Source of the DNA: a virus
IMG/VR virus record: IMGVR_UViG_3300037558_001664
Span: 1-22,487 of that record
Length of the DNA stretch: 22,487 bases
Reading direction: 5' to 3' (one strand)
Shown: positions 1,933 to 22,487 of the stretch, piece by piece
Position numbering within the stretch: the stretch's first letter is position 1
Layout of the letters: the number at the start of each line of letters is the position of its first letter
Program-made: the position numbers and the translations under genes
The notes under the pieces: generated by a model
What the model saw: the letters and a program-made list of their open reading frames with translations, nothing else
Database searches by the model: none
What the model was told of the DNA's origin: nothing

Positions 1933-2565
1933 ATGAAAATAGCAATACTATGCGAGACAAGCGGCACGATTCGCGAACTAATGAGAGAAAAGGGGCATGA
2001 CGTTATATCATGCGACACCTTACCCTCTGACGATCTATCGCCAAGCGATTCACACCACTGGCAAGGGGATGCCATGAAATTCCTACAGGATAGTGACGAT
2101 GGAGAGTTCGATTTGATAATTGGACATCCACCGTGCACTGCCCTTGCGGTAAGCGGAAATAGATGGTACGGGCAAGGAATGGAGAAACACTCTAAGCGAT
2201 TAGAGGCCATGCAATGGACGGTGGATTTGTGGAATCTAGCTAAGCGCAAAGCAAAGCGGGTAGCCTTTGAAAATCCCGTGGGCGTGCTGGGACACACCGA
2301 AATGGGCAAGGCTACGCAATACGTTCAGCCGTGGCAGCATGGGCATCCTGAAAGCAAACGTACGGGCTTATGGCTACACAACCTGCCTAAACTACAGGAG
2401 ACGGACAACGTGAAAGAGGAGTTCGACAAGCTTCCAAAGCGAGAGCAACAGCGCCTACACTATCTGCCACCATCGCCTGATCGATGGAAGATCCGTAGTA
2501 AAACATTTATGGGCATAGCTCAAGCAGTAGCAAATCAATGGGGAGATTTAGACAATGGAATATAA
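1933..2565 (+). CDS. Cytosine-5 DNA methyltransferase-like protein
   Basis: A 210-residue protein resembling the compact phage cytosine methyltransferase-like family. It would transfer a methyl group, or a related modification, from S-adenosylmethionine to cytosine. The N-terminus (ILCETSGTIREL) corresponds to the SAM-binding motif. GHPPCTALAVSG near residues 64-75 holds the Pro-Cys of the catalytic motif. FENPVG near residue 115 corresponds to the ENV motif with Pro in place of Val. PWQHGHPESKRTGLWL lies where the QxRxR motif is expected. At 210 residues it is much shorter than classical enzymes and has no obvious target-recognition domain. No partner restriction enzyme is seen, so self-DNA protection or base modification is more likely than a restriction system. 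Confidence 0.65.
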   Translation: MKIAILCETSGTIRELMREKGHDVISCDTLPSDDLSPSDSHHWQGDAMKFLQDSDDGEFDLIIGHPPCTALAVSGNRWYGQGMEKHSKRLEAMQWTVDLWNLAKRKAKRVAFENPVGVLGHTEMGKATQYVQPWQHGHPESKRTGLWLHNLPKLQETDNVKEEFDKLPKREQQRLHYLPPSPDRWKIRSKTFMGIAQAVANQWGDLDNGI

Positions 2566-5292: not shown

Positions 5293-5486
5293 ATTTTATA
5301 AAACTTATCGACTTAGAGGAAGAGGGCGAAGCCGAGGTGCTTGTATCCATAATCGAGGAGGCCATCGAACGCCACTGCTCAGAGGAGCAGGAGGCGAGCA
5401 TTGTAGACTACGTAGAGCGACGCATTGAGCTTGAGAGTTTGCAATTTGGAGATGAATATTTGCTCAAAATTAGCGAATTAGGTTGA
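5289..5486 (+). CDS. Small acidic unknown protein
   Basis: A 65-residue, very Glu-rich protein predicted to be helical. The ATG overlaps the stop of the previous gene as ATGA, implying coupled translation. No domain recognised. Confidence 0.5.
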   Translation: MNFIKLIDLEEEGEAEVLVSIIEEAIERHCSEEQEASIVDYVERRIELESLQFGDEYLLKISELG

Positions 5487-5519
5487 CCTCGTGTTTAAAC
5501 TTCTTAAAACTATCGACAT

Positions 5520-5948
5520 ATGAATATTAAAGTTTTAGAAAAGAACGGCGAGTGGGTAAAGGTTCAGGTGCAACGAGGTGAGGAATCTGACGATGCCGCC
5601 ATCAAAGCCATTGATCCGAAAAAGTACGAAGTGGGCCAGGAATATAAAGGTGTGCAAGCTGAATATCGAAGCACTCAGGAGAGCGGCTTGGTTACCTATG
5701 AAGAAAAGAGCCCCCTAAAAGATACAAACAGTGAAGAAAAGGGCCCCATAAAATATACAGACAATGAAGGAAATTCGGTGCAAATCGCAGAGATAGGCAC
5801 TATTCCAGACACGGCCTACATCATTGGCTTCTTGGAGGCTTTGGCGGTTGTGACGTTTGAGGCTGCTGGCATTGAAATGGACGTAGATAAGATTAGCATG
5901 ATTGCGGCAAGTCGAGCAGCCAGGCACATGCAGAAGGGGCAGTTATGA
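5520..5948 (+). CDS. Unknown protein with an internal duplicated 11-residue unit
   Basis: A 142-residue protein in three parts: a beta-like N-terminal region (about 1-55), a hydrophilic linker containing two tandem 11-residue units (EEKSPLKDTNS, EEKGPIKYTDN), and a helical C-terminal region (about 95-142) with a hydrophobic stretch. No family recognised. The start follows a 33-bp gap holding only a weak promoter-like pair (TTGACC at 5483, TAAAAC at 5505). The C-terminus overlaps the sigma-like gene as ATGA, linking their translation. Confidence 0.5.
   Translation: MNIKVLEKNGEWVKVQVQRGEESDDAAIKAIDPKKYEVGQEYKGVQAEYRSTQESGLVTYEEKSPLKDTNSEEKGPIKYTDNEGNSVQIAEIGTIPDTAYIIGFLEALAVVTFEAAGIEMDVDKISMIAASRAARHMQKGQL
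5700..5765 (+). repeat. Tandem 33-bp duplication inside a gene
   Basis: Two units, 5700-5732 and 5733-5765, match at 28 of 33 positions by direct comparison and keep the reading frame. They encode the paired 11-residue hydrophilic units of the gene at 5520. The high DNA identity suggests a fairly recent duplication. Confidence 0.8.
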
Positions 5949-8483: not shown

Positions 8484-9242
8484 ATGAGCCATTTCTACAC
8501 GCAACAAAAAAACGGCAAGGTAAAGCTGTTAAAAACGGTTGATACCATTGCCAAAGCACGAAGGCACGGCAATTGCAGCAAGTCTGTTACGACAGTGCTT
8601 CAATTGTTTCCCAGGCAACTCAGGGGATTTGACATCAACAACTGGCGTGAGCGTCGTTTGATTGCTCTAGCTAGGCAACACCCTTCGGACACTGAAGAAA
8701 AGCTCTTAGAGAGGCTCTGGGGGTACAGAGAGGACATTGACGGCAGTGTATTGACCTCCTCCGAGTTTGGAACCAAGCTACACGCAGAAATGGAGGAGGC
8801 CATCCTTCAGAAAATGGCAGGTGCTGACTACTACAGCGAGTACCGTCATTTCTACGGGAAGTTCTTGGAGTGGCTAGACTTCTCCGACATCGAGCCAGAG
8901 GTGGTTGAACACTCAGTCATGGACAGCAAGCGTCGCGTGGCAGGTATGATTGACTTCATTGGCAACAACAACGGCTCACCCATACTGATGGACTTTAAGT
9001 TTAGGCAGGGCAACCCAAGACGTAAGAGCTACGACACTGACCTTTGCCAGCTAGCGGTAGAGGCAGACATCATTGCAAACGAGCGAGGCATCAACATCGA
9101 CACTATCGACTGCTGTAGCGTCATCTTTAATTGCGAAAACGAAGAAATGTACGTGAAGCTTTGGCCTTCTGAAAAGGTTAAGTGGGGAGTTGAGGCGTTT
9201 GACAAGTTAAACGACACGTACAACTTCTTCACGGGACTATAA
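8484..9242 (+). CDS. PD-(D/E)XK (RecB/Cas4-like) nuclease
   Basis: A 252-residue protein with the core of a PD-(D/E)XK nuclease. A helix with GTKLHAEMEEA lies near residues 96-106, Asp157 sits in AGMIDFI, the DFK triad is Asp170/Lys172 in ILMDFKF, and a following helix carries Gln189 (CQLAVEA). Spacing matches RecB/Cas4-type exonucleases, which degrade DNA ends and generate ssDNA for recombination. No Fe-S cluster cysteine pattern is evident, unlike Cas4. The helicase gene starts 4 bp after its stop, suggesting the two proteins act together in a RecBCD/AddAB-like manner. Replication-coupled recombination is inferred. Confidence 0.75.
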   Translation: MSHFYTQQKNGKVKLLKTVDTIAKARRHGNCSKSVTTVLQLFPRQLRGFDINNWRERRLIALARQHPSDTEEKLLERLWGYREDIDGSVLTSSEFGTKLHAEMEEAILQKMAGADYYSEYRHFYGKFLEWLDFSDIEPEVVEHSVMDSKRRVAGMIDFIGNNNGSPILMDFKFRQGNPRRKSYDTDLCQLAVEADIIANERGINIDTIDCCSVIFNCENEEMYVKLWPSEKVKWGVEAFDKLNDTYNFFTGL

Positions 9243-9246
9243 GCCA

Positions 9247-10587
9247 GTGCTTTCGCTCCAACAGCAACAGGTATTTGACCTAGTAACTAGGCGAAGGTGT
9301 CGGTTCCTCCGCTTGGACGGGTCAGCGGGTACTGGAAAGTCCTACCTGATTGACGAGCTGCGAAGAAAAGAGCCCAGAATTTGCATTGTCGCACCTACCG
9401 GAAGGGCAGCGTCCAATGTTAAGGGCGAAACATTCTTTAGGCAGTTTGGAGTTCCGAGTGCAGACGCACTTGATCCGAGTGTGGCAATTACCAAGCAGCG
9501 ATCCGATCAAATAGAAACAAGGTTTTTTGGGAGGAAAAAAGACAAGCTCCTTAGAGGTGTTTCTTGGATTGTAATTGAGGAGTGGACTATGGTTCGCTGT
9601 GACCACATAGACTTCATTTCTAAGGCCATGCGTAGGGCCACAGGCATCCCTAAACCCTTTGGTGGGGCCAGTGTGATGTTTGTGGGTGGGCCAGGCCAAC
9701 TACTACCCGTAGCCGATGAAGGAGACGTTAAGGCCCTATCAAGCTTTGGCTACAAGCAGCCCTTTGGCCTTGAGGAGTCTAGGTTCTGGCAAGATTATGG
9801 AGAAGAGGTAAAAATTAAGAGCCTTAACCACATCTTCAGGCAGTCAAACCCCATAGAGGCTAACATCTTGGAGCGTGTTAAGGTGGGGAACCAGACCGAC
9901 ATAGATCTCGTCGCCATTAACAAACAGGTTGGCACTCCCTCCCCTTCTGCTATTGTCCTGTCCCCATATCGGAGGAGGGCGGCACAGATTAACGCAAAAA
10001 AGCTGTCTCGGCTCAGAACCAAGGAGTACACCTTCTTGGCCAGCAACAAGGGCGAGACCAAGGGGTTAAGTGCGATGGAGCAAACACTCACGCTCCGAGA
10101 GGGATGTCGCGTCATCATTAAGAAGAACATCCGCAAGAAGATTAGGGGAAGAGTTCAGAGCGTGGTCAATGGTGACACGGGAGTGTTTGTTGGCCTAGAC
10201 AAGTACCAACGCCTAGTTATCATGCGTGACAGCGACTGCGATTATGTTTTCATCTCGAAGGAAAAGGAAGTTAAGTTTAAAAACAAGTTAGACAAGGACG
10301 GCAACATCGAGTGTGAAGAGGTGGGCAGCATAAAGCAATACCCAGTCAGGCTAGGGTGGGCCATGACCATTCACGCCAGCCAGGGTCTTACCTTGGAGAA
10401 GGTGCACTTGGAGCTAGGCGATAAGCCCATCACCGAATGGGGACACGGCCTAATGTACGTTGGCTTGTCTCGTATTAAAAGTTTTTCTGGTCTGACAATT
10501 AGTCGGGCCTTGACGCATCGGGACATATGTAGTACAATTAAGTCTTTCCAAAACCCCAATCAACAATATGAGTTGCAAGAATCCTAA
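9247..10587 (+). CDS. Superfamily 1 DNA helicase (RecD/Dda/Pif1-like)
   Basis: A 446-residue ATP-driven helicase starting at GTG 9247. Walker A is GSAGTGKS (25-32), motif Ia is VAPTGRAASN (48-57), motif V is AMTIHASQGLTLEKV (about 376-390), and motif VI is MYVGLSRIKSFSGL (about 406-419). Two key sites are unusual. The Walker B Asp-Glu is Glu-Glu (IEEWTM, 111-112), and motif III reads GGPGQL (147-152) where Gly148 replaces the usual Asp. Substrate is probably DNA ends or recombination intermediates made with the adjacent nuclease and SSB-like protein. The 3' end overlaps the HNH gene by 20 bp. Whether it retains full ATPase activity is uncertain. Confidence 0.75.
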   Translation: MLSLQQQQVFDLVTRRRCRFLRLDGSAGTGKSYLIDELRRKEPRICIVAPTGRAASNVKGETFFRQFGVPSADALDPSVAITKQRSDQIETRFFGRKKDKLLRGVSWIVIEEWTMVRCDHIDFISKAMRRATGIPKPFGGASVMFVGGPGQLLPVADEGDVKALSSFGYKQPFGLEESRFWQDYGEEVKIKSLNHIFRQSNPIEANILERVKVGNQTDIDLVAINKQVGTPSPSAIVLSPYRRRAAQINAKKLSRLRTKEYTFLASNKGETKGLSAMEQTLTLREGCRVIIKKNIRKKIRGRVQSVVNGDTGVFVGLDKYQRLVIMRDSDCDYVFISKEKEVKFKNKLDKDGNIECEEVGSIKQYPVRLGWAMTIHASQGLTLEKVHLELGDKPITEWGHGLMYVGLSRIKSFSGLTISRALTHRDICSTIKSFQNPNQQYELQES

Positions 10588-11011
10588 GCCACATAACTCA
10601 GGTCAATGGACTGACGCCCGTAAGCGTAGCTTTGCTATGTCTGCTTTGCGTGGTGCTAGGTGGCCTGTAAAGTACCAAGCAATTAGAGATGCTTACGTCA
10701 AAGATGGCATCAATCCCGCAACGGGTCGGAAATGCAAGCTCCACAAGTGTGCCCAGTGCGGCAACCTGTTCCCCCAAAAAGACATGGCCGCTGACCACAT
10801 TGACCCAGTGGTTCCCATAGGGGGATTTACCGGAGAAACTTATTTGGGCTACAACTGGGGCGAGCTAATCCAACGCCTCTACTGCGAAGCTGATGGCTTC
10901 CAAGCGTTATGCAAGGAGTGCCACAAGCTTAAGACAGCAGATGAAAGGGCGTTAAGAAATGCCGCAAAGCAACACCCAACACCAAGCGATTGGTCAAACG
11001 CCCACGGTTAA
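10568..11011 (+). CDS. HNH endonuclease
   Basis: A 147-residue protein with a zinc-stabilised HNH (beta-beta-alpha-metal) nuclease. Cys61/Cys64 (CAQC) and Cys115/Cys118 (CKEC) would bind zinc, and ADHIDPV (Asp76, His77) and CHKLKT (His119) supply the catalytic metal site. The N-terminal 55 residues are basic. Such proteins nick or cut DNA in packaging, recombination or homing. Placed after the nuclease-helicase pair it may process recombination junctions, but a free-standing homing nuclease cannot be excluded. An ATG at 10637 would shorten it by 23 residues. Its stop overlaps that of the convergent tailspike gene. Confidence 0.75.
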   Translation: MSCKNPKPHNSGQWTDARKRSFAMSALRGARWPVKYQAIRDAYVKDGINPATGRKCKLHKCAQCGNLFPQKDMAADHIDPVVPIGGFTGETYLGYNWGELIQRLYCEADGFQALCKECHKLKTADERALRNAAKQHPTPSDWSNAHG

Positions 11012-12960
11012 ACAGTTCTTTTGCCTATCACCGCAAGGGACAGTACAGCACTGGAATTAGTGGCAGCGGCTGATGCGTTTGTATGCAATATACGGAAAGA
11101 ACCAACTGCCTTTGTCGTAATGGCTACAATTCTGTTAGACGCAGCAGGGGCAATGGCAACCGTATAGTTTGCATTAGACATATCATCTGCAATTGTCACA
11201 TCGTATATCCCCGTGCCAGCATACGCAATGCTGCAATTGAATGATTCCGTTGTGCTAATTGAGCCAGCCGTAGCATCAAACGTAGCATAAGCCTGGGTAG
11301 CGTAGTCAGCAACAACAGGATGATTGTTGACTGCTCCAGCTTCACTACGGGGAGATGATCCAGTAATGCTGCCAGCCATGCCTTGGTCAACATTGACCAG
11401 TCGGTAGTTTGTGTACGTGGCCGCAATGCCAGACCCTCCGCTAATGTTTCTAAACTCTGGCGATCCCTCTGGCCTTCCAGTAGATGGCTCAGTGCCTTGA
11501 ATCAATAAGTCCTCAGCAGCAATAAAGCCATTAGCCATTAAGTTTCCGTAGCTTACGCCACTATATGGGGGTGATGGATCAGGAGTGCCCTCAAACACTA
11601 CGCCATTGTTAGTGGTGGGATCGTTAAGCTCAGTGTAGAAGTTAAGGACACTATTGCCACTGCTAGTGGGAGCAAACAAAATGCCAACACCATCATTTAG
11701 TTCAGCGGTACACCTGTCTATTGTGCAACCACGATGCGGTCTAAAGAAAATACCAGCACCATCGCTTGGGGCACTTGTTTCATCATATGTTGCATCCAAG
11801 CCGTTGTTGTATGCCCATAGGTTAGAAAATAGTACGCCATTGCATTTCCAGTTTCCATGATTTGTTGTTCCTGACCAATTCAAATCTGGATCTGCCGCAC
11901 CAATGCTAATTCCGCGACCGCCATTACTGCGAGCAATGATGTTCTGAAACATACCAGAGTATGTCCCGTTAATGTACCATCCATCTCCCTCGCACTGACG
12001 AGCAACACAGTTTGTAACGTAGGGCTGCTGCAACCTAGCTGCATAAAATCCGTACTTGGCCTTGTCGTTACCATTAAAGGTAATGTTTTCAAACCTCACA
12101 CCCCAAATAGTGTTCTCAAAAGTAGAGGATGGCTCCGTTCCCACCGCCTCGGCACTAATTGCAATTACCGCAGTGGTTGATCCGGTAGAACCATCATAGA
12201 AAATCTGACACTCCTTGGTGCCGTCCCAAGCGGGACCACCCGTTTGCTGAGTTGCGGGATAAATAGATGGGGAAACAGACCCAATAAACCCACAATTACG
12301 ATTGCGGATGGGATCAATAACAAGGTTAGAGGTGGTGCGGTACTTGCCTGCTGGCATGATTACCAAAGCATTACTGTCTAACGCCCCTTGCAATGCAGCT
12401 GTATCATCTGCCACACCGTTGCCAACAGCACCAAAGTCTGTTACAGACTTGTACTCTGGAGTCAGGGCACTAGCGGTAACTGCTTGAATTGCACCGTTAG
12501 CATCAAAGCCCAAGACTTTGTTGGCTCTGTCCGTGGCGTTAGGTATTTCCGTGGACGCTGTGTCGCTGATGGGTAGCTTCAATGCACGATCAGCTTTACC
12601 GTCTGCTTCTTGAGTTCCGATAGCCAGCCTGTCAAAGGTGTACTCTAACGACTTGGCCTGGAACTCACCAGCCGTAGCTAACGTGGTAGACTGGGCGTTG
12701 CCAGCGTCTGAAAACATTACCCAGTTGGTGCCTGCAGGAATGGCTGAAGACGGAGTAATGGTAACACTAGAAGACGTGTCCCCAGCACCTGCTACAGTAA
12801 AGTCAGTGCCGTTTACCAACGCTGTCTCGACGTATGTGGTGGTGTCGTACTTAAACCCCTTGATGTCGGTTGAGTTAAATACCTTGCGATTAAACGCAAT
12901 TGTAGGAGTTGACCCGTCGCCAACAACATTAACTTTATACAATTCTGATGATACGCTCAT
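11008..12960 (-). CDS. Tailspike/tail fibre with T7-fibre-like N-terminus and pectate-lyase fold
   Basis: A 650-residue virion protein. Residues 1 to about 110 resemble the N-terminal attachment domain of podovirus T7-like tail fibres (GDGSTPTIAFN motif, then a helical LEYTFDRLAI segment). Residues from about 168 begin with DFGAVGNGVADDTAAL, the signature of the pectate-lyase-3 parallel beta-helix family, which binds and often cleaves surface polysaccharide. The Gly/Asn-rich middle is consistent with beta-helix turns. The C-terminal 100 residues are Ser/Thr/Ala-rich and probably a trimerisation or receptor region. It is the last gene of the minus-strand block. It overlaps the small basic-protein gene upstream by ATGA. 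Enzymatic activity is inferred from the fold only. Confidence 0.85.
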   Translation of the reverse strand: MSVSSELYKVNVVGDGSTPTIAFNRKVFNSTDIKGFKYDTTTYVETALVNGTDFTVAGAGDTSSSVTITPSSAIPAGTNWVMFSDAGNAQSTTLATAGEFQAKSLEYTFDRLAIGTQEADGKADRALKLPISDTASTEIPNATDRANKVLGFDANGAIQAVTASALTPEYKSVTDFGAVGNGVADDTAALQGALDSNALVIMPAGKYRTTSNLVIDPIRNRNCGFIGSVSPSIYPATQQTGGPAWDGTKECQIFYDGSTGSTTAVIAISAEAVGTEPSSTFENTIWGVRFENITFNGNDKAKYGFYAARLQQPYVTNCVARQCEGDGWYINGTYSGMFQNIIARSNGGRGISIGAADPDLNWSGTTNHGNWKCNGVLFSNLWAYNNGLDATYDETSAPSDGAGIFFRPHRGCTIDRCTAELNDGVGILFAPTSSGNSVLNFYTELNDPTTNNGVVFEGTPDPSPPYSGVSYGNLMANGFIAAEDLLIQGTEPSTGRPEGSPEFRNISGGSGIAATYTNYRLVNVDQGMAGSITGSSPRSEAGAVNNHPVVADYATQAYATFDATAGSISTTESFNCSIAYAGTGIYDVTIADDMSNANYTVAIAPAASNRIVAITTKAVGSFRILHTNASAAATNSSAVLSLAVIGKRTV

Positions 12961-13250
12961 TTCTTTGCTTTTCTATTTTTTGGTGAGCTTTTAGTCCTGC
13001 CACCCTTGCCTGCCCATAACTCGGTACATGCTAAATGTTTTGCCGTTCCTGCTTTTGCCGTGCTACACTTGTGCCTAGCCCTAAAAGACTTACGAGCGGA
13101 AGCAGAGTAGTTGTGCCCATAGCCAGTGGCTCCAGCATGAACTAGCTTCTTCTTGCCGTCCATACAGTAGAGCTTCATTATTTTTTTGCCTGGACGGGTG
13201 CTTTTTTTCACCTGCCCACAACTCATTGATGCTTTAGGACTTTTTGCCAC
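12957..13250 (-). CDS. Small basic Cys-containing protein (DUF-like, aquatic-phage type)
   Basis: A 97-residue, Lys/Arg-rich protein starting at GTG (13248-13250 on the plus strand), with LVHAGATGYGHNYSASARK and SFRARHKCSTAKAGT, then LACTELWAGKGGRTK. The segment with RARHxCSTAK and Cys-Thr-Glu-Leu-Trp recalls small basic proteins of unknown function common in marine phages and giant viruses. High charge suggests nucleic acid binding, perhaps inside the virion, but this is not shown. It has four Cys that could bind metal. The stop overlaps the tailspike start as ATGA. Confidence 0.65.
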   Translation of the reverse strand: MAKSPKASMSCGQVKKSTRPGKKIMKLYCMDGKKKLVHAGATGYGHNYSASARKSFRARHKCSTAKAGTAKHLACTELWAGKGGRTKSSPKNRKAKK

Positions 13251-13256
13251 GTCGTA

Positions 13257-13358
13257 CTACTTCTTTTTCTTTTTACCTGCTATTGGCTTTTTTTGACCTT
13301 TAGCAGCCTTAGATGGGCGACCTACTTTACTTCCGTATGTTCCTTTTCCGTATGGCAT
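13257..13358 (-). CDS. 33-residue Lys-rich micropeptide
   Basis: The product begins MPYGKGTYGSKVGRPSKAA and ends in a run of Lys. About a third of residues are Lys. Short, disordered and strongly positive, it resembles tiny basic phage peptides that accompany packaged DNA. The ATG at 13356-13358 (plus-strand coordinates) lies 4 bp after the stop of the gene at 13363 and its own stop is 6 bp before the next GTG, so it fills the gap between two genuine-looking genes. Confidence 0.5.
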   Translation of the reverse strand: MPYGKGTYGSKVGRPSKAAKGQKKPIAGKKKKK

Positions 13359-13362
13359 AATA

Positions 13363-13512
13363 TTACTTTCTTTTTTTTGCAGTTTTAGCTGATTGCTTAA
13401 ATGCTTTAGCCGTTGGTGCGCCCTTTGATCCAGGTTTTCTCATCCGTTCTCCAGATCCAGCTTTAATCCTTTTGCGTTTAGCGTAAATGTTTGCGTATAA
13501 TCCTTTTGACAT
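13363..13512 (-). CDS. Small basic phage protein (GLYANI type)
   Basis: A 49-residue, very basic protein beginning MSKGLYANIYAKRKRIKAGS and continuing GERMRKPGSKGAPTAKAFKQ. I recognise this sequence pattern as a recurrent small protein in aquatic tailed phages, usually next to structural genes, with no known function. Arg/Lys richness makes DNA binding likely. The start is supported by a clear SD (AGGA, 8 bp upstream, on the minus strand). It is the first of three tandem basic genes. Confidence 0.7.
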   Translation of the reverse strand: MSKGLYANIYAKRKRIKAGSGERMRKPGSKGAPTAKAFKQSAKTAKKRK

Positions 13513-13536
13513 AATTATTTCCTATTTAATTTTAAA

Positions 13537-13758
13537 TTATTTATCCTTTGTTTCTTCTTTTCTGATTTTAATTCCTAGCACTAAAAAGTATATTCCAAGG
13601 CCAGTAGAAACAATACTAAGTATGCCACCGACCATCGACAGCAAAGTGTTTAATTCTGCTAGTTTATCAACCATAGTTCCCGTTGCAGCCAAAAGCCCTC
13701 CAAAAGAAAAACGAAACCCCTTAATAAAAGAGTCTTGTGCTGCCACTGCTAAGTTCAT
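13537..13758 (-). CDS. Small membrane protein, possible second holin
   Basis: A 73-residue protein with two hydrophobic stretches, about residues 16-29 and 39-64 (VGGILSIVSTGLGIYFLVLGI), and a basic C-terminus (RKEETKDK). The start at 13758 gives an ATGA overlap with the preceding holin-like gene and is preferred to an in-frame ATG 45 bp further upstream. Pairs of small membrane proteins are typical of lysis cassettes, where one is a holin and the other an antiholin or pinholin. No direct functional motif is visible. Confidence 0.55.
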   Translation of the reverse strand: MNLAVAAQDSFIKGFRFSFGGLLAATGTMVDKLAELNTLLSMVGGILSIVSTGLGIYFLVLGIKIRKEETKDK

Positions 13759-14219
13759 TCCGAAAATAATCTCTTGTTTAGATCGCGTTGCCCAAAATAC
13801 CAACCACCATAGGCAAAGGCTATTGTAAAAATCTGATTTAAAATAATGTTTTGGTACTCTTCAGGCATTTGAAAATACAAGATTCCTGCTAATACGTGGG
13901 CACCTAATGCCAACATTGGTCGCACACTTCCTTTGAATATAAAATGCCAGATAAGCAATCCCTTCTGCCAAGGCTTCTCTGCTATTTGAGCTACCGAAAT
14001 TAAGGCGTCACCTTCAACTTGTGCTGACTTCTGAGAGGCTTGGAAGTCTGCACTGTCTGCCTCTATAGTGCCCTTGTCAATTTGCAGCTTGAGCATCTCT
14101 AGGTCTATTTCGGCCTTAACCTTCATGCCCTTTAACTTCATCCACCCAGACGCAACAGAGCCGACAATCCCTAAGACGCCACCCGTACCTGCGTTTGTTA
14201 ATGCTTGAATCCAATCCAT
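13755..14219 (-). CDS. Holin-like 3TM protein
   Basis: A 154-residue membrane protein. A glycine-rich N-terminal hydrophobic segment (AGTGGVLGIVGSVASGWM) and a charged amphipathic stretch come first. Then follow KPWQKGLLIWHFIF, RPMLALGAHVLAGILYF and a final hydrophobic helix (NQIFTIAFAYGGWYFGQ). The pattern, including the conserved-looking RPML segment, resembles the 3TM holins of gene-transfer agents and related phages, which form lesions in the inner membrane at lysis. No endolysin is seen in the window, so its partner may lie outside. Confidence 0.65.
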   Translation of the reverse strand: MDWIQALTNAGTGGVLGIVGSVASGWMKLKGMKVKAEIDLEMLKLQIDKGTIEADSADFQASQKSAQVEGDALISVAQIAEKPWQKGLLIWHFIFKGSVRPMLALGAHVLAGILYFQMPEEYQNIILNQIFTIAFAYGGWYFGQRDLNKRLFSE

Positions 14220-14223
14220 AATC

Positions 14224-14475
14224 TTAAGGGTTATAGTTTTCGGCGTATTCGTAGGTTAATCTGACAGACAATGTTCGATCTTCTAGTGCCTTCCTTAGTT
14301 CTTGGCGATCAGCTAAACCAAAGCACTCATCACTAAACAAAACATAATCCCTAAATGTCTTAAACTCCCAGTCGTTTTGCTTGCAGAGTTCATTGATTAC
14401 GTAGGCATAGTCCTTGAACCCCAAAAATCTTTCACTTGAGGAGTTGTTTAAAGTTTTTACATTACAGGCAATCAT
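14224..14475 (-). CDS. Small unknown protein
   Basis: An 83-residue protein with a helical, charged character and aromatic-rich motifs (FLGFKDYAYVINELCKQN, FKTFRDYVLF). No family recognised. It lies directly after the stop of the gene at 14476 and 4 bp before the holin-like gene, so it is part of the lysis-region operon. Confidence 0.5.
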   Translation of the reverse strand: MIACNVKTLNNSSSERFLGFKDYAYVINELCKQNDWEFKTFRDYVLFSDECFGLADRQELRKALEDRTLSVRLTYEYAENYNP

Positions 14476-14601
14476 TTAAAACAAAGGAGTGCTTCCGCTC
14501 CATTTAACCGCCAAAACCAACAACACTAAAAAAACGCCAATTAAAAACATTCTTCGCGTTGCTTTCCTAGAATTTAGCCACATATCTTTAAGCCAAGTCA
14601 T
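14476..14601 (-). CDS. 41-residue single-pass membrane protein
   Basis: The product has a basic N-terminus (KDMWLNSRKATRRM) followed by a strong hydrophobic helix (FLIGVFLVLLVLAV, about residues 19-32) and a short exposed tail. This predicts one transmembrane helix with an internal N-terminus. Its ATG overlaps the stop of the secreted protein gene as ATGA, and its stop abuts the next ATG. It may act with the holin-like protein or with the secreted partner. Confidence 0.5.
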   Translation of the reverse strand: MTWLKDMWLNSRKATRRMFLIGVFLVLLVLAVKWSGSTPLF

Positions 14602-14975
14602 GATTTATTTCCTCTCAGTTTTTGTAAAAATTTCTTTCCCAACCAAGCTAATGGGTTGCTTTCTTTATTAACTTTAAGATCCGATGGAGCTACGGGGCCG
14701 ATAGTAATCTCAGTAACTACGTTAGAATAGCTTGATTCGCCGTATTGGTTTACTGCTCTCACTCTGTAGGCTAGTTTCCCTCCCGAGGGAACCTCTGCGT
14801 CAATGTAACTGTTTTCGTTAGGGCCTGTACCATTTAAAAACACAAACTCGCCATCTCCAACCTTACGCTCAACTTCAAAACCGTCTTCGTTGTCTGAATT
14901 ATCAGACCACACCAAACGTAGATCGGCAGCGTAAATACTCGTTGTGAGCATGATGATTGCTAGGAGTGTTTTCAT
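14598..14975 (-). CDS. Secreted fibronectin type III domain protein
   Basis: A 125-residue protein with a signal peptide (MKTLLAIIMLTTSIYA, cleaved before ADLRL). One fibronectin type III domain occupies about residues 18-92, with the signature pattern DGFEVERK and YRVRAVNQYGESSYS. The C-terminus is a basic amphipathic helix (LAWLGKKFLQKLRGNKS). Export to the periplasm or cell surface is likely. Fibronectin domains are common on phage particles, but a signal peptide on a stand-alone one is unusual. It overlaps a membrane protein gene as ATGA and could serve in lysis, virion adsorption or superinfection exclusion; none is proven. Confidence 0.65.
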   Translation of the reverse strand: MKTLLAIIMLTTSIYAADLRLVWSDNSDNEDGFEVERKVGDGEFVFLNGTGPNENSYIDAEVPSGGKLAYRVRAVNQYGESSYSNVVTEITIGPVAPSDLKVNKESNPLAWLGKKFLQKLRGNKS

Positions 14976-14976
14976 T

Positions 14977-15654
14977 TTATGCAGGCTTTAACGCCACTGC
15001 TACCATAGAATTTCCAGTTGTTGCGCTAGGCGTAACAGTTCTGGTTTTGGATCCAGCACTAGATTCAAGCTTTTCATTGATCGATACACTTGCAAATGTA
15101 CCAGGATACGCTGTATCAATTAGCTCTGTTCCATCCGACCAAGTGGACGTAATGGTTGGCGTAGTGCATCCAGATATTGCAACAATCATTGCATTGCTAG
15201 TGTTAGTTGTAACATCAACAGTCCAAGGTGTACCATAATTCATTGCCGATGAGCCGTAGGCATCAACAGGGGATCCGCTGGAAACGCATCCAGAATAAGC
15301 TCCAACCCAGATGTAATAAGTTTCTCCATTAGGGAAAAACGAGGACCAAGTTTCAGTGGTAGCTGTAGATCCAGACGATGCTCGTTTCCAATATGCGGCT
15401 GTCGTTGATTGATATGATGGCGTACCGTCTTGCTGAGTTATCTTGGTCCAACCTGAAGGAGGGGAAGCTGTTGGGTCAGATTCACCGTCTGTCGCTACCA
15501 AAAGCAGCAGAATATCATTAACTGCTACCGCTGGTATATTAACGTCGATGTTTACTGGCGTTGCGTAGCTAGTAGCCGTCGTTGTCGCAGAAGCCTCAAG
15601 AGTGATACCTGTAGCAGCCGCAGCAGGCTTTAAACTGGCTTTCCAGCGTAGCAT
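14977..15654 (-). CDS. Beta-rich virion/adhesin-like protein
   Basis: A 225-residue Ser/Thr/Gly-rich protein. PPSGWTKITQQ and AYWKRASSGST with later WVGAYSGC resemble phage structural and decoration proteins with Ig-like beta folds. The C-terminus ends MVAVALKPA. It lies between tail-fibre genes and the secreted protein, so it is probably a minor tail or decoration protein that may bind host surfaces. No catalytic residues seen. Its start overlaps the previous stop as TAATG (1 nt). Confidence 0.55.
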   Translation of the reverse strand: MLRWKASLKPAAAATGITLEASATTTATSYATPVNIDVNIPAVAVNDILLLLVATDGESDPTASPPSGWTKITQQDGTPSYQSTTAAYWKRASSGSTATTETWSSFFPNGETYYIWVGAYSGCVSSGSPVDAYGSSAMNYGTPWTVDVTTNTSNAMIVAISGCTTPTITSTWSDGTELIDTAYPGTFASVSINEKLESSAGSKTRTVTPSATTGNSMVAVALKPA

Positions 15655-16337
15655 TACAGTTTCTCGTACTCAGATTGGAAAGTGACAGTGAGGTCGCCAG
15701 CATCAGCTTTAGCTAGTGCGTTCTCCTCAGCCGTAAAACAATTTTTAATATGGGTGCTGACCAGAGAAACCATTTCGTTCCAGTCCTCTAGCGTGTTGTG
15801 CCGAAACTGTTTTTGCCAAATCTCTTTGGTGTATTCAATTTTATTACCCTTTTCGTCTTCGACTGGGTAACTCACAGTGACACGTTTGTCCATCTTCCAG
15901 CTAGCGTAACCAGTGGATGTTGGATCTGCATTTAACATAGCCAAAACAGAAGTCATTTTAACCTGACTGTTCTCGTCTGTTCCTATACGCCACAAGTCAA
16001 AATTCTCATCTAGCCACTCAACACCGCCTTGCTCCATGTCCCAGCGATTAGAGGTAATTTGACCCTTAAGCTTATTTTTAGCAGCATCTTCTTCAAAGTC
16101 TATAACATCCCAAGCCTGTACCCACCAGCCTTCATAACGCTGTTCAAATTTCCACTTAACGTATTGCAGAGTGCTGTTGTACTCTGGCTTTGGGTCTATG
16201 GTGTACGTGTAGCAATTGTAGTCTACTAGAACAACATCGTTTAAGGGGTTGGGGAAACTAACATTAGGGTTGTCCCGTTTCAACGCACCCTCGCTATACT
16301 TAGCAGGTACTCCATCTGTAAGTTTTAGTATATTCAT
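15654..16337 (-). CDS. Tail-fibre-associated protein with DUF4376-like C-terminus
   Basis: A 227-residue protein. The N-terminal half, rich in Trp and Tyr, fits a fibre-associated beta domain. The region from about residue 100 to the end (GGVEWLDENFDLWRIGTDENS and later VSLVSTHIKNCFTAEENAL) resembles DUF4376, common in phage tail-fibre assembly or fibre-associated proteins. It probably helps fold or attach the fibre encoded just upstream. The start overlaps the fibre gene stop as ATGA. Confidence 0.6.
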   Translation of the reverse strand: MNILKLTDGVPAKYSEGALKRDNPNVSFPNPLNDVVLVDYNCYTYTIDPKPEYNSTLQYVKWKFEQRYEGWWVQAWDVIDFEEDAAKNKLKGQITSNRWDMEQGGVEWLDENFDLWRIGTDENSQVKMTSVLAMLNADPTSTGYASWKMDKRVTVSYPVEDEKGNKIEYTKEIWQKQFRHNTLEDWNEMVSLVSTHIKNCFTAEENALAKADAGDLTVTFQSEYEKL

Positions 16338-17563
16338 GATGCTACCCCTGGTGTCATTCCGTAGAGATCAGATCCGACCTTCCAAAGAACTATTACATTT
16401 TTATTAGTTGTATCTAATGTTGGAGCTGATCCGCCAATCCATTTATCAACCGCTCCAGTCCAATTAATTGTGTAACCAGAACCGTCATCTACAACTAGTG
16501 TTACAGCCTCACCGTCATTTAAACTGTCCGTAACGCTGCCACTTCCTACACTTCCCGTCAGGGTAATGTTTTGTATTGTGCCGTTTCCAGCACTCAATGT
16601 ATACGTTCCGGTTACATTAGCGGTGTAAACTAACTCTTGTATAGCACCAGCCATGTCTAGGGTGGTGACTACAGGAGTGGTTAGTGTAGGATTGTTTGTA
16701 AAACTTAAAACACCGCTTCCGTTTGTTGTAATTAAACTATTAGCAGCACCAGTGGCTGTTGGGAGAGTAAGAGTATAGGTTGCACCAGCAGAATGTGCAG
16801 GAGACTGTATTTTAACCCCGTGGTTATTGTTAGAACAATTTAGCTGTATTGCTCCAGTAGTGCCACTTGTTGTGCCATCACCCATAGCCTCTACACACCC
16901 TGTGCCGTTGGGATTTAGCTTAATATTGCCGTTGCTTGTAGTGGTATTTATTTCTGTTGCCTGAACATCTAAGTTTGCCGAAAGGTGCGGGCTACCATCA
17001 TCTGAAAGATCCTGCATAGCAGAATCGGCCTTAGTTCCTTGTGCAGCCGTTGCGTAGTCAGATGAGGCAAAAGCCTTTACCTGAGCAAGATTAGTAACTT
17101 CGCTGTCCATTAAAGCCCCAGCAGCGGTCACTGTACTTGTATTTGTTACATTTGCTCCAGCAGAAATACCGTCCAGTTTAGTTTTATCACCATTCACAAA
17201 CGCTCCCTCACTTGGCTTAAGCTGGTACGTTGAGAGGTTTTGGTCGCCCGTATTTGTCCCGCTAGTGTTGGATAGCTTGGTTATATCAGCCGCTGTAACA
17301 AACTTATGAGTTGTTGAAGAATCATCAATGTCATCGGCGTCCTGTCTGGTGTTCCCCATGTACACCCAAGCTGAACCGTTCCAGCGATAAAAACCTGCAT
17401 CATACCCCGTGGTTGCGGCAATAACTAAATAAACATTGCCTGACGTTGCACCTCCAGGTAAACTGGCATAATTTGCAACCTCACCTTTAATTTCAGGGAT
17501 TTGAGTAGCTTTGCGAACGCCTTCGTCCACCTCTGGGCCAGTATAGGAACTATTGTATGCCAT
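16334..17563 (-). CDS. Tail fibre protein
   Basis: A 409-residue fibrous virion protein with low-complexity, Gly/Ser/Thr/Asn-rich sequence. DKTKLDGISAGANVTNT and KIQSPAHSAGATYTLTLP are signatures common to phage tail fibres. The N-terminus (FYRWNGSAWVYMG) is typical of small beta domains in fibres. It would form a trimeric fibre for host binding. It overlaps its upstream neighbour by 1 nt (TAATG) and its downstream one by ATGA. Confidence 0.75.
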   Translation of the reverse strand: MAYNSSYTGPEVDEGVRKATQIPEIKGEVANYASLPGGATSGNVYLVIAATTGYDAGFYRWNGSAWVYMGNTRQDADDIDDSSTTHKFVTAADITKLSNTSGTNTGDQNLSTYQLKPSEGAFVNGDKTKLDGISAGANVTNTSTVTAAGALMDSEVTNLAQVKAFASSDYATAAQGTKADSAMQDLSDDGSPHLSANLDVQATEINTTTSNGNIKLNPNGTGCVEAMGDGTTSGTTGAIQLNCSNNNHGVKIQSPAHSAGATYTLTLPTATGAANSLITTNGSGVLSFTNNPTLTTPVVTTLDMAGAIQELVYTANVTGTYTLSAGNGTIQNITLTGSVGSGSVTDSLNDGEAVTLVVDDGSGYTINWTGAVDKWIGGSAPTLDTTNKNVIVLWKVGSDLYGMTPGVAS

Positions 17564-17727
17564 TATTGTCTTACGTTAAATGCTTCATTAGATGGGCCAA
17601 CATTGTAGGCTTGGTGTCCACCTGCCCCGTCGTTTACGTTGTACTGATGACGTAACACAGGAGCAACCTCACCCCCTAATAAAAGGGAGGTCACAAAGGC
17701 TTTGACCTTAACTATAGTTGCAGACAT
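17563..17727 (-). CDS. 54-residue unknown protein in tail operon
   Basis: A short protein beginning MSATIVKVKAFVTSLLL, followed by a Gly/Asn-rich polar tail (NVNDGAGGHQAYNVGP). It has 1-nt TAATG overlaps with both neighbours, which strongly supports translation. It may be a small tail or virion component. No family recognised. Confidence 0.55.
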   Translation of the reverse strand: MSATIVKVKAFVTSLLLGGEVAPVLRHQYNVNDGAGGHQAYNVGPSNEAFNVRQ

Positions 17728-17981
17728 TAGAGCCTAGCTGCAATAAGTGGCGTAGCCGTGGTTCCAGATGACAAGATGTGAGTGCCTTGCAATGGGTGAT
17801 AGCTGTTAGCTGCAACGGGGATAGTGACGTTTGTCTGTCCACCGCCTGGGCTGACTACGACGTTTCCAGCCGTACCTCCCACGTAGATCCATTGAAACTT
17901 AGCATCAGTAAATACCCTATTTGTGTCATGTGGGCTTACGGTTTTGTAAACTTCTGCTGGTGATCCTATTGTTTGTGCCAT
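17727..17981 (-). CDS. Small beta-rich virion-type protein, first gene after the late promoter
   Basis: An 84-residue protein rich in Gly, Thr, Val and Pro with alternating strand-like segments (FQWIYVGGTAGNVVVSPG; HILSSGTTATPLIAARL). Such short proteins are typical decoration or connector proteins near tail genes. It is the first gene downstream of the consensus promoter, with a leader of roughly 27 nt and no SD. It overlaps the next gene by 1 nt. Confidence 0.55.
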   Translation of the reverse strand: MAQTIGSPAEVYKTVSPHDTNRVFTDAKFQWIYVGGTAGNVVVSPGGGQTNVTIPVAANSYHPLQGTHILSSGTTATPLIAARL

Positions 17982-18051: not shown

Positions 18052-21000
18052 TTAAAAATCCCACTTGCCTCGGATGGTTTTGGTTTCTTTATTTTCCTTG
18101 TCTTGCTTAGTTATTGATTTTAAATACTTATCTGCAGTGTATGAAAAGTAATTAGCCCCAGGAACGCCCATTAATTTTGAAGCAGCCGAAACATAGTTAT
18201 CTCTATGCGCGTCTTGAAATGCAGAAGTAAAGACCATATTGTTCTGGCTCAAAAACCAAGCGGCGGCATCGTCGCCCACAAGCTGTGCAGTTTTGCCTTC
18301 TATTAGTTGACCAGCAAAAGGTATGCCGCCAACAAATTGAGACACTGCGTAGCGTGACGAGTCTTGCCAAAATTGCTTGTCCTTTTCTTCGTCTTCTTCT
18401 CGAACGCCTATTACTTCTTTAAGCGAGTCTCCTATGAAATCTGTGCCAGCTAAGTATAGCGAAGATAACACAACTGGAAATGCTACAAACATTATAGCCT
18501 CTCGCACCTTGCCGTCTTTAAGTTGCGTTGTAGAATATCCAAGATTTAACATTCTGTTCATGTCTGCAGTAAACGCAGTAAGTTGCTTTTCTAGGCCCCC
18601 AGATGTAAAAAAGAATGGCAATTGATCTATTCTGCCAGAAGGATAGTAAACGTTAATAATTCTATCAGCTTCTTTTACCGCTAAATTATGGTCTCCCGTT
18701 TTCCCAGCGACTTCTTTGTACTTTGATGTCCACGCTATAGTTGTAGAATAAGAATCTAAAGCACCATAAACAGCCCATCCAAGTTCTTTAAACTTTTTAG
18801 ATGTTTTTTTGTAAGCAGATAAAACTTGAGAAGTTGTTTCTCCGGTAGGAATAATCCTACTTCTAAGAGATTGTTCAGACATTTCTGCAACCTCAATGCG
18901 ATTAGTATCTCTTCTGGTTGCCATTAACTTTGATGAACCTACAGCAAATTCATGTTGTTTACCATAATTTTCAAAATCAGACAAGGTGTTAAACCAAGCA
19001 CCAGATTCAATATCCTTCTTAATTGCAATTAAGGGAGCAAAAGTTTTAAGCCAAGACGCAACATTTAATGCAGTTAAACTTGCCGCAGCGTTTTGCCTTA
19101 AGTGCGAGGTAAGCTCTATTATTGCACTACTTGGAGAGTCAAACGTTCCCCTAGCAACTTTTTGCAAATACTTATTAACCCACTGTACGGCAACGTCATT
19201 AGATTTAATTAACTCTGTCCGAACTGCTTCAGAAGAAAAAACTGCTTCGGCTCTTCTAATTGTAGAATAGGTCGCTATTACGTGTTCTGTGTTGGCAATG
19301 TTTGATAACATATCCCCAACAAAATCTAGATTCCTGTTGCCCCACCCAACTTTTGCTCCGACTCTAAACTTCTGATTGTTCATTTTAAACCCAGCATATT
19401 GAGTGTGGTCGTTAAAGATGTTTGAGCCTGCAGAAATGTTGCTTAAACCAGTTATAGGTAAATACCTTTCTTCCTTGGGCATATCTGCTCCAAAACGTTT
19501 TTTATAAATGTTATTTAATCTAGGGTAAATATCATTATCAAAATAATCTATTACAAAATCCACAAGGTCTTTGTATTTCTGTGGAAGTGTTTCGTTAATC
19601 AACCTTATTTGCTCTCCCTTTAGTGCCACCCCGCCAAAATTAGTAGCAGAGAGATGCCCACGGCCACGAGCATTTTGGTTGTGCCCGTAAACAAACATTG
19701 CCTCGTGAATGGACATTGCTCGATTACCAACAGTCAACAATTGATTTGTTCCAACAGAAGAAATATCTATTTCAAGTTCTTTTAGTTTGTTCTCTAGCAA
19801 CCCATTCTTGCCAGAAAATCTTTGCTGCATCAGTATGCCTTCGCTAAAAGCCTCAGAAATAGAATCAAACAAAGATTCAAATTTAGATCTTTTCTTTCCG
19901 GTAAGAACTGTAGATATTGTTTGATAAGTAGCAAGTTCCGATCCGTACTTAGCAATAAAGCTACGCATCTGAGCTACTTCTCTGGCATCAGTTTTGCCCT
20001 CTGTTTTAGAAAGTTCTAACTTTATTGTTTCAGATAAAGCTTTTATCTTTCTTTTTTCGTTTAATACATCTAGCTTTCTTTTGGTAACGCCCTCTTTTTT
20101 TATTGAATCAATGTTGGTTGATATTGCGTCTATTGTTTCCTCAGTTAAATTTTCTTCTAAAAGAGGAGTTTGAGAACGCTCAACAATATCATTGTCAGGA
20201 TCGGTAAGCTCATAATTTTCTTGCTCGTCAATTCTCTTATTTAAATCTTGTAAATCTAATTGTGCCTGGTTTCTAGCAGCTTCAGAGTTTTTGGTTAAAC
20301 CAAGCAAATCTAAATAATCACTTAACCTTGGTGTGTAATCAGATGCCCAAGGAGTTTTTGCTTTTCCCTTTTCTGCCTTTTCTATAACTTTAGATATTTT
20401 TGTAAGCTCTTTTTTAAGTTCGGCTTTTTTAAAGGCAATAGTTTCTTCCTTAAAACTTGACTCAAGAATGTCTAGTTTTTTGTTTAACAAGTCTTCTAGT
20501 TTCTCCAAGTCTTTTTTAGTAGACAAATCAGAAACCTTCATAGGCTTTAACTTGTTACTTTTGGGCAACTTAGCATTTAGTTCTCGATGAAGTGCCTCAA
20601 CTTGACGAATAGCATCTGTTATAGACTTGCGTATTTCATTGTTTTCCCACCTTTTATTTCTAGCCTGTTGTTGTGCCTCTTGTTTAATCTCTTTAACTTT
20701 ATCAGAATGTTTTTTTCTCAGGTCGCGAGCAGTAGTTACAAGAGCCCTCCGAAGTGTGCCAATTTTTGAAGCTTGTTGTCTTTCTTTATCTAAAAACTTT
20801 TCCTTTTGTGCAGACAATTTAGCATCGCTTTTAGTTCGCTCAGCTTTTACTGCGTTTAATCTTTTTTTAACTTCTTTTGCTAATTGCTTGTCTTTACGAA
20901 GTCTTTCTTTTAAAACGGCAAATCGTTTTGGTGTTAGTTTTTTCCCTTGACGACCCGTTAGAACACCAAACTCATATCTTCCTGCTACGTGACCAAGTAT

Positions 21001-22487
21001 ATCGCTAATTGTTTTTTCTTGTGATTTAGTTAGCTTTTCTTCTGGCTTAGGCTTAGCATCATCTTGTTGAGTTTTTTCTAATTCTTCTTTTGCTTTTTGA
21101 GGAATTTCTATTGCTTCATTTATTTCCCTTAATTCAGCCTGAATTTGCTTTTCAATTTTTTGAGCCTCTTGCTCTTTTGCTGCTTCTTGCTCTGCCTTGC
21201 CCCTCGGATCGCCAGGGCGAATTGGCATTTCTCCAGATTTCTTAGTAGCCGAACCTTTTTTAGTAACTACTATTGATGCGCCATTTAATCCAGTTTTCTT
21301 CTTAACGTCAAACCCATCTCCAAGTAAATTCAAAACATAAGATTCAAGTTCATTTTGGGTAAATCCTTTTTGAAATGTTGTTTTTTTGCCCTTGCCAATT
21401 ATGAAAGCATTTTCCTCTCCACTCACTGGGGATTTTAATTTAGCACCCTTTACGTCACTAACAGTTCTTGCAGTAATAAATGCCTGGCCCCCTGGTGCCA
21501 AAACTCTTCCTATGTTTTCTACTATAAAATCGCGAACATCTTTTTTTACTACGTTTAAAACAGAAAAAGAAACAATCGAATCAAAAGAATTGCTTGGTAT
21601 TTTTGAAGCAGACTCCGGCGTTGCAAAATCTGGAGGAGATTCACCCTTCCATTTATCTGGAAACGGCTCGTGGCTAGTTACATCAAGACCGGATTCAGAA
21701 ATTGCAACAGTACCAACTCCTTCGCCAGCACCATAATCTAAAACCCTTCCACTTAACTCTGGTATGATTTTTTTATACGTTGGCTCGGTTGCCCTGCCCC
21801 TTTGAGTAGCCGAACTCTTAGAGTCAGTTTGCGGCAAAGCTGTATTGGTTGTTTCGCCTTCAAGCTCAACGCTAACGGTTGCGTCTACTACGTCAAGATT
21901 AACGCCTGCCTTTACTTCGGCGTCTCTAATACCTTCAGCCAGCAACAAAAGCTCTTCTTTTTGAACTTCGATGGGCTCTCTAGGCAGCGTAAATTCTTCC
22001 GCAATTCCTAATCCCTCTACGGCTTTTTGAGACTCTACTATCTTTGCAACAAGTTCTTCGGCACCAGGACTGTCTTCAATAACTTTTCCAAGAACAAGAG
22101 CCTCCTCTGAAGTCATTCCTTCAGTAAACTCCTCCATAGATGTTGCCTCAACCATTTTCTTAATCAGGCGAGAATCTGGAGGAATAGCCTCGTCCATCAT
22201 CATTGCTTTCCATGCAGATGATCCGTTTAACAATCTTTGCGAAAGCACCTCAACAGACCCAACGGGCAACTCAATGAGCATTTCCGTGGCAATGTCTTTA
22301 AAATTTGGGTCTTCCCCAACAATCAAATCTGCAGCCAAAGCACCAATGCCAGCCGCTCCAGGTTGAATAGCAAGAGCATTAAAAGCAGCAGATCCAATTT
22401 TTCCAGCAGAAGCAAAGGCCAATGATTCGGTTATGGCTTCTGGGGCAGCTCGAAGCATTGCATAATTAAGTGCTTCTTGAAAAAACT
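18052..22487 (-). CDS. Giant virion/ejection-type protein with embedded methyltransferase domain (5' end beyond window)
   Basis: The frame is open to the window edge, so at least 1,477 residues are present and the N-terminus is missing. Numbering here is from the Met at 22458. Residues about 225-400 form a class I SAM-dependent methyltransferase: RVLDYGAGEG (motif I), SHEPFPDKW, FDSIVSFSVLNVV and VLAPGGQAFITAR. Residues about 415-830 are Lys/Glu-rich and predicted coiled coil. The C-terminal 600 residues are helical with a hydrophobic segment (FVAFPVVLSSLYLAGTDFIG, about 1320) and resemble large polyvalent or internal virion (DNA-ejection) proteins. Size, position before the tail genes and architecture fit a protein injected with the DNA. 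The methyltransferase substrate is unknown. Confidence 0.7.
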   Translation of the reverse strand, partial: FFQEALNYAMLRAAPEAITESLAFASAGKIGSAAFNALAIQPGAAGIGALAADLIVGEDPNFKDIATEMLIELPVGSVEVLSQRLLNGSSAWKAMMMDEAIPPDSRLIKKMVEATSMEEFTEGMTSEEALVLGKVIEDSPGAEELVAKIVESQKAVEGLGIAEEFTLPREPIEVQKEELLLLAEGIRDAEVKAGVNLDVVDATVSVELEGETTNTALPQTDSKSSATQRGRATEPTYKKIIPELSGRVLDYGAGEGVGTVAISESGLDVTSHEPFPDKWKGESPPDFATPESASKIPSNSFDSIVSFSVLNVVKKDVRDFIVENIGRVLAPGGQAFITARTVSDVKGAKLKSPVSGEENAFIIGKGKKTTFQKGFTQNELESYVLNLLGDGFDVKKKTGLNGASIVVTKKGSATKKSGEMPIRPGDPRGKAEQEAAKEQEAQKIEKQIQAELREINEAIEIPQKAKEELEKTQQDDAKPKPEEKLTKSQEKTISDILGHVAGRYEFGVLTGRQGKKLTPKRFAVLKERLRKDKQLAKEVKKRLNAVKAERTKSDAKLSAQKEKFLDKERQQASKIGTLRRALVTTARDLRKKHSDKVKEIKQEAQQQARNKRWENNEIRKSITDAIRQVEALHRELNAKLPKSNKLKPMKVSDLSTKKDLEKLEDLLNKKLDILESSFKEETIAFKKAELKKELTKISKVIEKAEKGKAKTPWASDYTPRLSDYLDLLGLTKNSEAARNQAQLDLQDLNKRIDEQENYELTDPDNDIVERSQTPLLEENLTEETIDAISTNIDSIKKEGVTKRKLDVLNEKRKIKALSETIKLELSKTEGKTDAREVAQMRSFIAKYGSELATYQTISTVLTGKKRSKFESLFDSISEAFSEGILMQQRFSGKNGLLENKLKELEIDISSVGTNQLLTVGNRAMSIHEAMFVYGHNQNARGRGHLSATNFGGVALKGEQIRLINETLPQKYKDLVDFVIDYFDNDIYPRLNNIYKKRFGADMPKEERYLPITGLSNISAGSNIFNDHTQYAGFKMNNQKFRVGAKVGWGNRNLDFVGDMLSNIANTEHVIATYSTIRRAEAVFSSEAVRTELIKSNDVAVQWVNKYLQKVARGTFDSPSSAIIELTSHLRQNAAASLTALNVASWLKTFAPLIAIKKDIESGAWFNTLSDFENYGKQHEFAVGSSKLMATRRDTNRIEVAEMSEQSLRSRIIPTGETTSQVLSAYKKTSKKFKELGWAVYGALDSYSTTIAWTSKYKEVAGKTGDHNLAVKEADRIINVYYPSGRIDQLPFFFTSGGLEKQLTAFTADMNRMLNLGYSTTQLKDGKVREAIMFVAFPVVLSSLYLAGTDFIGDSLKEVIGVREEDEEKDKQFWQDSSRYAVSQFVGGIPFAGQLIEGKTAQLVGDDAAAWFLSQNNMVFTSAFQDAHRDNYVSAASKLMGVPGANYFSYTADKYLKSITKQDKENKETKTIRGKWDF

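Follow-up and report, generated by a model that had tools for sequence, protein, structure and literature searches.

A removable methyltransferase cassette in a predicted ejection protein of a marine-type phage

Introduction

What does a methyltransferase do inside a giant phage protein of the type that may enter the host together with the DNA? The question is raised by a fragment of an uncultivated, marine-type phage, IMG/VR record IMGVR_UViG_3300037558_001664, whose 22,487 bases were analysed as a whole (hereafter the window). A giant gene reaches the edge of the window, and a preliminary description had read its product as a giant ejection/polyvalent-type virion protein with an embedded class I methyltransferase. 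Here, we show that this methyltransferase is a removable cassette, exchanged between backbones, which goes beyond what had been described. On balance, we think it probable that the giant protein is an ejection protein in the position of T7 gp16, with a swappable cargo slot holding a non-DNA methyltransferase that is delivered at the start of infection; packaging, ejection, activity, timing and substrate are what we infer.

Results and discussion

The cassette nature of the methyltransferase emerges from the comparison with two other phages (Table 1). In L002, the closest relative, the giant protein is without exactly the window residues 211-418, and no methyltransferase copy was found elsewhere in its 27.9 kb record. 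L003, a related phage (tail tubular protein B 84% identical), has at the corresponding place in its gene order a giant protein that resembles that of the window in the methyltransferase only, where the two are 77% identical (78% at the DNA level); the two domains are sisters in the tree (support 100/99). The open reading frame (ORF) of the window runs off the end of the contig, which truncates it on the 5' side, and about 311 amino acids are missing, since the L002 homologue has 311 further N-terminal residues.

Table 1. Features of the giant gene and its surroundings in the window
Feature	Position	Strand	Basis or remark
Giant virion/ejection-type protein (predicted)	18052..22485	-	1477 amino acids visible, 5' end open; coordinates include the stop
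N-terminal backbone, residues 1-210	21856..22485	-	93% identity with L002 residues 312-521
Left linker VVDATVSVELEG, residues 199-210	21856..21891	-	L002 and L003 read VDETVGVELEGK, 25 identical nucleotides
Methyltransferase cassette, residues 211-418	21232..21855	-	missing from L002; in unrelated backbone of L003
Folded class I S-adenosylmethionine (SAM) methyltransferase domain, residues ~231-409	21259..21795	-	Pfam, AlphaFold2, fold matches
Motif I DYGAGEG, residues 250-256	21718..21738	-	alignment
HEPFP, residues 272-276, with E273 after strand 2	21658..21672	-	alignment
VLNVV, residues 309-313, motif IV position, no DPPY-type motif	21547..21561	-	alignment
QKGF, residues 372-375, family-specific invariant	21361..21372	-	alignment
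Right linker EMPIRPGD, residues 419-426	21208..21231	-	24 nucleotides identical to L003, 14 to L002
C-terminal backbone, residues 419-1477	18055..21231	-	charged helical stretch, then long C-terminal region; 79% identity with L002
Tail-fibre-like genes, 17727-17981 and 16334-17563	16334..17981	-	downstream of the giant gene, as gp17 after gp16 in T7

An assembly chimera could also place a domain in a foreign gene, and the window is a fragment of an uncultivated metagenomic contig. However, both joints are in frame, and the similar domain of L003 comes from a separate contig, where it has joints of its own, so that a misjoin of the same reads does not account for the cassette. We find a chimera scarcely credible.

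The borders of the cassette are marked by two short linkers, whose arrangement differs between the three phages. The left and right linkers enclose an empty slot in L002 and the methyltransferase in the window; in L003 the order is left linker, another module, right linker, methyltransferase. EMPIRPGD thus lies downstream of the methyltransferase in the window, but upstream of it in L003. When the L002 and L003 genes are compared, exact DNA identity over 14 bases or more is limited to 25 bases of the left linker (VGVELEGK) and 15 bases of the right linker (EMPIR), and the longest stretch shared in 200 codon-shuffled L002/L003 comparisons was 19. Among 1.69 Mb of loci, the linkers are confined to these three, weak chance matches aside, and a degenerate search of IMG/VR added one chance antisense match and nothing else. 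L117, proposed as a right-linker carrier by a translated search, was rejected, as the match is antisense within an unrelated gene region and due to chance. Because linker DNA is shared between genes that are otherwise unmatched, the sequences suggest that cassettes are exchanged by recombination at the linkers; the window/L002 pair is compatible with gain or loss.

The methyltransferase is not the only insert in such proteins. Further relatives, retrieved through tail tubular protein B, added two backbones. The L108 giant (11523-16019, 1498 amino acids) is uninterrupted at residue 788, the site at which the L103 giant (9274-16404, 2377 amino acids) carries an insert of 885 residues, with DUF7178, a zincin-like HELVHAQ (HExxH) motif and a region similar to a 'minor capsid protein' known from Microbacterium phages. 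The L094 giant (9106-16935, at least 2610 amino acids) has a further 267 residues. L096 and L106 show no interruption where L003 carries its insert. The first L003 module (5390-5785, between both linkers) is GNAT-like at a weak Pfam E value of 0.052, and its single-sequence AlphaFold2 model has a predicted local distance difference test (pLDDT) of 47; its nearest match is a hypothetical protein of Pseudomonas phage HRDY3, and no further viral relatives were found.

By fold and motifs, the domain in the window is confirmed as a genuine class I SAM methyltransferase, with predicted catalysis. Pfam Methyltransf_23 (E 1.5e-7, 31.8 bits, cut-off 27) and Methyltransf_11 (E 8.2e-6, 26.8 bits, cut-off 21.2) both matched within residues 242-344. 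The AlphaFold2 model, built from an alignment of 26 diverse relatives (model residue n is residue n+215 of the giant protein, P0001), has a pLDDT of 89.3 and a predicted template modelling score (pTM) of 0.84, with a class I fold over residues ~231-409. It bears out the methyltransferase that the preliminary description had recognised by motif I and a PGG motif (APGG, residues 330-333), and for which structure prediction had been suggested as a check. Foldseek and VIA-align neighbours were METTL6, glycine N-methyltransferase (GNMT), TylM1 and similar enzymes (Z 15-16.6). The fold is alike in these and other class I small-molecule, protein or tRNA methyltransferases, but the window domain is only ~12-22% identical to them, and the substrate is not transferable from any neighbour, because the top matches lie within ~2 Z of one another.

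Conservation points the same way. GxGxG, the [VTIM][LIT]N motif and QKGF are kept in 80 of 80 relatives, so that the domain is not a chance match. The acidic residue E273 is invariant in 26 diverse members and, judging from the fold, would contact the SAM ribose. In the window and L003, SFS replaces the usual N-L/M-N ahead of VLN, which would fit a degenerate or purely structural Rossmann domain serving as a spacer. However, the SAM motif residues are invariant over the 80 members in many backbones, and the L002 backbone dispenses with the cassette altogether. A spacer is therefore improbable.

The domain is not recognisable as a DNA methyltransferase. Neither the motif IV (D/N/S)PP(Y/F/W) of N4/N6 DNA methyltransferases nor the C5-type PCQ/PPC motif occurs in any of the 80 members, and none of these domains contains a cysteine. 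No DNA methyltransferase was among the 50 fold matches listed, which alone excludes nothing. PADLOC gave no match, and NCBIfam gave methyltransferase models only, far below cut-off. The motifs count against the earlier suggestion that incoming DNA could be protected, a role in which the enzyme would be a shield comparable to P1 DarB. Entry with the DNA would fit such a role in time, and N6-adenine methylases are frequent in polyvalent proteins (PMC5512222). However, the matches by fold are to small-molecule, protein and tRNA enzymes, Pfam detected no superfamily 2 (SF2) helicase partner in the window protein, and the phage has a separate early gene to which PHROGs give the name DNA methyltransferase. 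We give DNA shielding little credence, and the presumed target is more likely a host RNA, protein or small molecule than DNA. The early gene itself (1933-2565, plus strand) matched phrog_757, a PHROG called DNA methyltransferase (E 7e-60), and contains a GHPPC motif; it has no Pfam match.

The family is viral: a profile scan with the METHYLTRANSFERASE family returned 324 relatives in viral contigs and 12 in 84,980 species genomes. Among the best viral loci, 60 carry the domain within ORFs of 584-3775 amino acids, at very different positions, and 16 have complete stand-alone genes of ~240 amino acids; the remainder are cut or broken. The genes around them encode terminase, portal, head, internal virion and fibre proteins, and the family resides for the most part in giant proteins of the virion module. 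In relatives, the same polypeptide may also contain a cell-wall hydrolase or lysozyme, or else ART-PolyVal, LPD38, LPD23, InPase, strawberry-notch helicase or SAP domains. The window giant has one recognised enzyme domain, whereas relatives have several polyvalent domains. In the Pelagibacter phages HTVC104P (L006:10911-11288) and HTVC103P (L010:10959-11336), an S-adenosylmethionine decarboxylase gene lies a few genes away from the giant gene with the methyltransferase.

Where in the phage does the giant protein belong? L002 retains the upstream genes lost from the window, in the order portal (phrog_332), protease/scaffold-like, major head protein, tail tubular proteins A (phrog_394) and B (phrog_376), gp14-like (phrog_418), gp15-position protein, giant and tail fibres. 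Since T7 has the same order, the giant protein corresponds in place to gp16. The placement was seen in L002, L003 and L092-L109; in the window only the downstream fibre genes are visible. Sequence divergence is fast among gp15/gp16-type homologues, and size and synteny are the usual basis for recognising the gp15-like ones (PMC8954989). Assignment of gp16 homologues likewise often rests on synteny and size, as in the P-SSP7 record. After ejection, T7 gp16 spans periplasm, membrane and cytoplasm (PMC8954989).

Behind the methyltransferase, a stretch rich in K/R and D/E and a long C-terminal region were found, with a single strong hydrophobic segment near the C-terminus of the protein. The C-terminal part had no family match in databases or the PDB, the PDB sequence search was empty, and an alignment of this part, used as a backbone search, recovered L002 alone.

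Cysteine exclusion is total in the window giant (0 in 1477 residues), at cysteine contents of 2.13% in the early genes and 0.75% in the other late genes. Across the family, 60 giants have 8 cysteines in 81,997 residues, and 20 shorter ORFs, stand-alone copies included, have 0 in 5,437; related sequences among these are not independent. The comparison covered the window giant, L002, L003 and L013-L091, with T7, N4, P22 and P-SSP7 (L131-L134) as controls. All complete giants of the gp16 slot are free of cysteine, as are the gp14-like and gp15-like proteins. In L002, this holds for the gp14-like, gp15-like and giant proteins, and the portal, capsid and tail tubes contain cysteine. Four slot inserts examined have none in a total of 1726 residues; small cellular methyltransferase relatives (L126, L128, L130) have 2-3 per domain. 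Among proven ejected proteins, T7 gp15 and gp16, N4 vRNAP, gp51 and gp52, and P22 gp7, gp20 and gp16 have none; T7 gp14 has one, and the other proteins of these phages contain 0.6-0.9%. The gp15 and gp16 of P-SSP7 are also without cysteine.

Cysteine may plausibly be avoided because such proteins would have to thread a narrow channel and cross an oxidising periplasm. Possibly, a lack of cysteine marks injected phage proteins in general where the host is Gram-negative, the stand-alone methyltransferases included, although the signature carries weight for very long proteins only, because shorter virion proteins are often cysteine-free. The open-access literature yielded nothing on point about cysteine exclusion in ejection proteins, and cysteine is not mentioned in PMC8954989, PMC10925440 or PMC5512222, which is not proof of novelty. 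All eight cysteines of CRP-3 gp36 (L005:4600-8478), a family member, fall outside the methyltransferase; they form two clusters in the C-terminal part (residues 1113-1123 and 1222-1233), which may be a metal site.

The methyltransferase fold in a giant protein at the gp16 position, together with the total exclusion of cysteine, makes it likely that the enzyme, with its predicted virion location, reaches the host pre-formed, before phage gene expression. In the mechanism that we favour, the slot between the N-terminal domain and the charged helical/C-terminal region would hold the class I non-DNA SAM methyltransferase cassette. The giant protein would be packaged in the head and leave with the DNA through portal and envelope, so exposing the methyltransferase to the host cytoplasm. 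SAM is available there. A host RNA, protein or small molecule could then be methylated at the start of infection, with counter-defence or host take-over as the most likely outcome. Cassettes would be gained, lost and swapped among phages by recombination at the short linkers flanking the slot. The lysozyme, cell-wall hydrolase, ART-PolyVal, LPD38 and LPD23 domains that accompany the methyltransferase in relatives also speak for this mechanism.

The main alternative is a role during assembly in the producing cell, in which the methyltransferase would modify virion proteins such as the portal, capsid or terminase and be no more than a passenger in the virion. In its favour, the giant gene is part of the virion module and is late, and stand-alone relatives lie between TerL and portal (L031) or beside the portal (Microcystis phage MJing1). 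However, the domain also occurs in proteins linked to lysozyme, cell-wall hydrolase, ART-PolyVal and LPD domains, L002 has a portal-to-fibre module that looks complete without a methyltransferase, and the exclusion of cysteine extends to the stand-alone copies. We judge a role in assembly unlikely.

Several observations weigh against delivery by ejection. The stand-alone relatives between terminase and portal suit an assembly role as well. The backbone has no Pfam or PDB match, and no sequence similarity to T7 gp16 was detected (the profile comparison of the C-terminal part was not significant, and PHROG gave none either). Ordinary virion proteins can also be free of cysteine, as in 28 of 61 neighbours and a TerL of 420 amino acids. 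Moreover, mycobacteriophage relatives hold 7-12 cysteines, and relatives from clostridial contigs some. No Pfam peptidoglycan hydrolase and no transglycosylase domain was found in the full-length L002 giant; this absence is not decisive, because an N-terminal hydrolase is not universal in gp16-type proteins and is also missing from P22 and Sf6 (PMC8954989).

A broader reading would extend the ejected cassette to podoviral gp16-position proteins in general. These would have a dedicated cargo slot, loaded by recombination and with portable linkers, that swaps cysteine-free enzymes delivered ready-made, cysteine exclusion marking the ejected cargo. Candidates for such cargo are the new non-DNA methyltransferase family and the metallopeptidase-like, possible GNAT and DUF7178 modules. 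We hold this generalisation tentatively, at slightly under an even chance.

If true, virion-borne enzymes would be loaded as interchangeable cartridges in a DNA-ejection protein, and phages would possess a counter-defence layer that works ahead of transcription and is able to vary against an almost unchanged set of capsid genes. The window and L002, with and without the cassette, offer natural controls. Candidate injected enzymes, stand-alone ones too, could furthermore be picked by sequence, as long virion proteins that lack cysteine.

Comparison with known systems

Named relatives of the same family are found in Roseobacter phages CRP-3 (gp36) and CRP-738 (gp40), Pelagibacter phages HTVC103P and HTVC104P, Microcystis phage MJing1, and the mycobacteriophages Myrna (gp97), Bigswole and ScoobyDoobyDoo, at 36-42% domain identity. 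These are virion-module proteins, mostly annotated as hypothetical, whose backbones differ from that of the window. The MJing1 relative is stand-alone and adjoins the portal, and some others have cell-wall hydrolase or lysozyme domains, unlike the window protein. On methyltransferases in internal virion proteins, the open-access literature held nothing on point, which is not proof of novelty.

The cassette would be of a known kind, the polyvalent-type cargo enzyme. With the polyvalent proteins (Iyer et al. 2017, PMC5512222), it shares the large phage protein with an accessory enzyme, and relatives that contain ART-PolyVal, LPD38, LPD23, InPase and strawberry-notch helicase domains. The methylases treated in the passages found there are DNA N6-adenine methylases coupled to SWI2/SNF2, whereas the window domain belongs to a different, non-DNA-type family, which those passages do not cover; nor was a recent in-slot exchange with retained linker DNA found described there. 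P1 DarB (same source) resembles our protein in having a methyltransferase within a virion protein, a location that is predicted here, but DarB combines an N6A-type DNA methylase with a helicase and acts in antirestriction, and neither feature was found in the window protein. From T7 gp16, the window giant differs by the absence of detectable similarity, by the lack of a transglycosylase in L002 and by its methyltransferase cassette. It is nevertheless like T7 gp16 and the podoviral ejection proteins (PMC8954989) in its gene place, giant size, hydrophobic C-terminal segment and complete freedom from cysteine.

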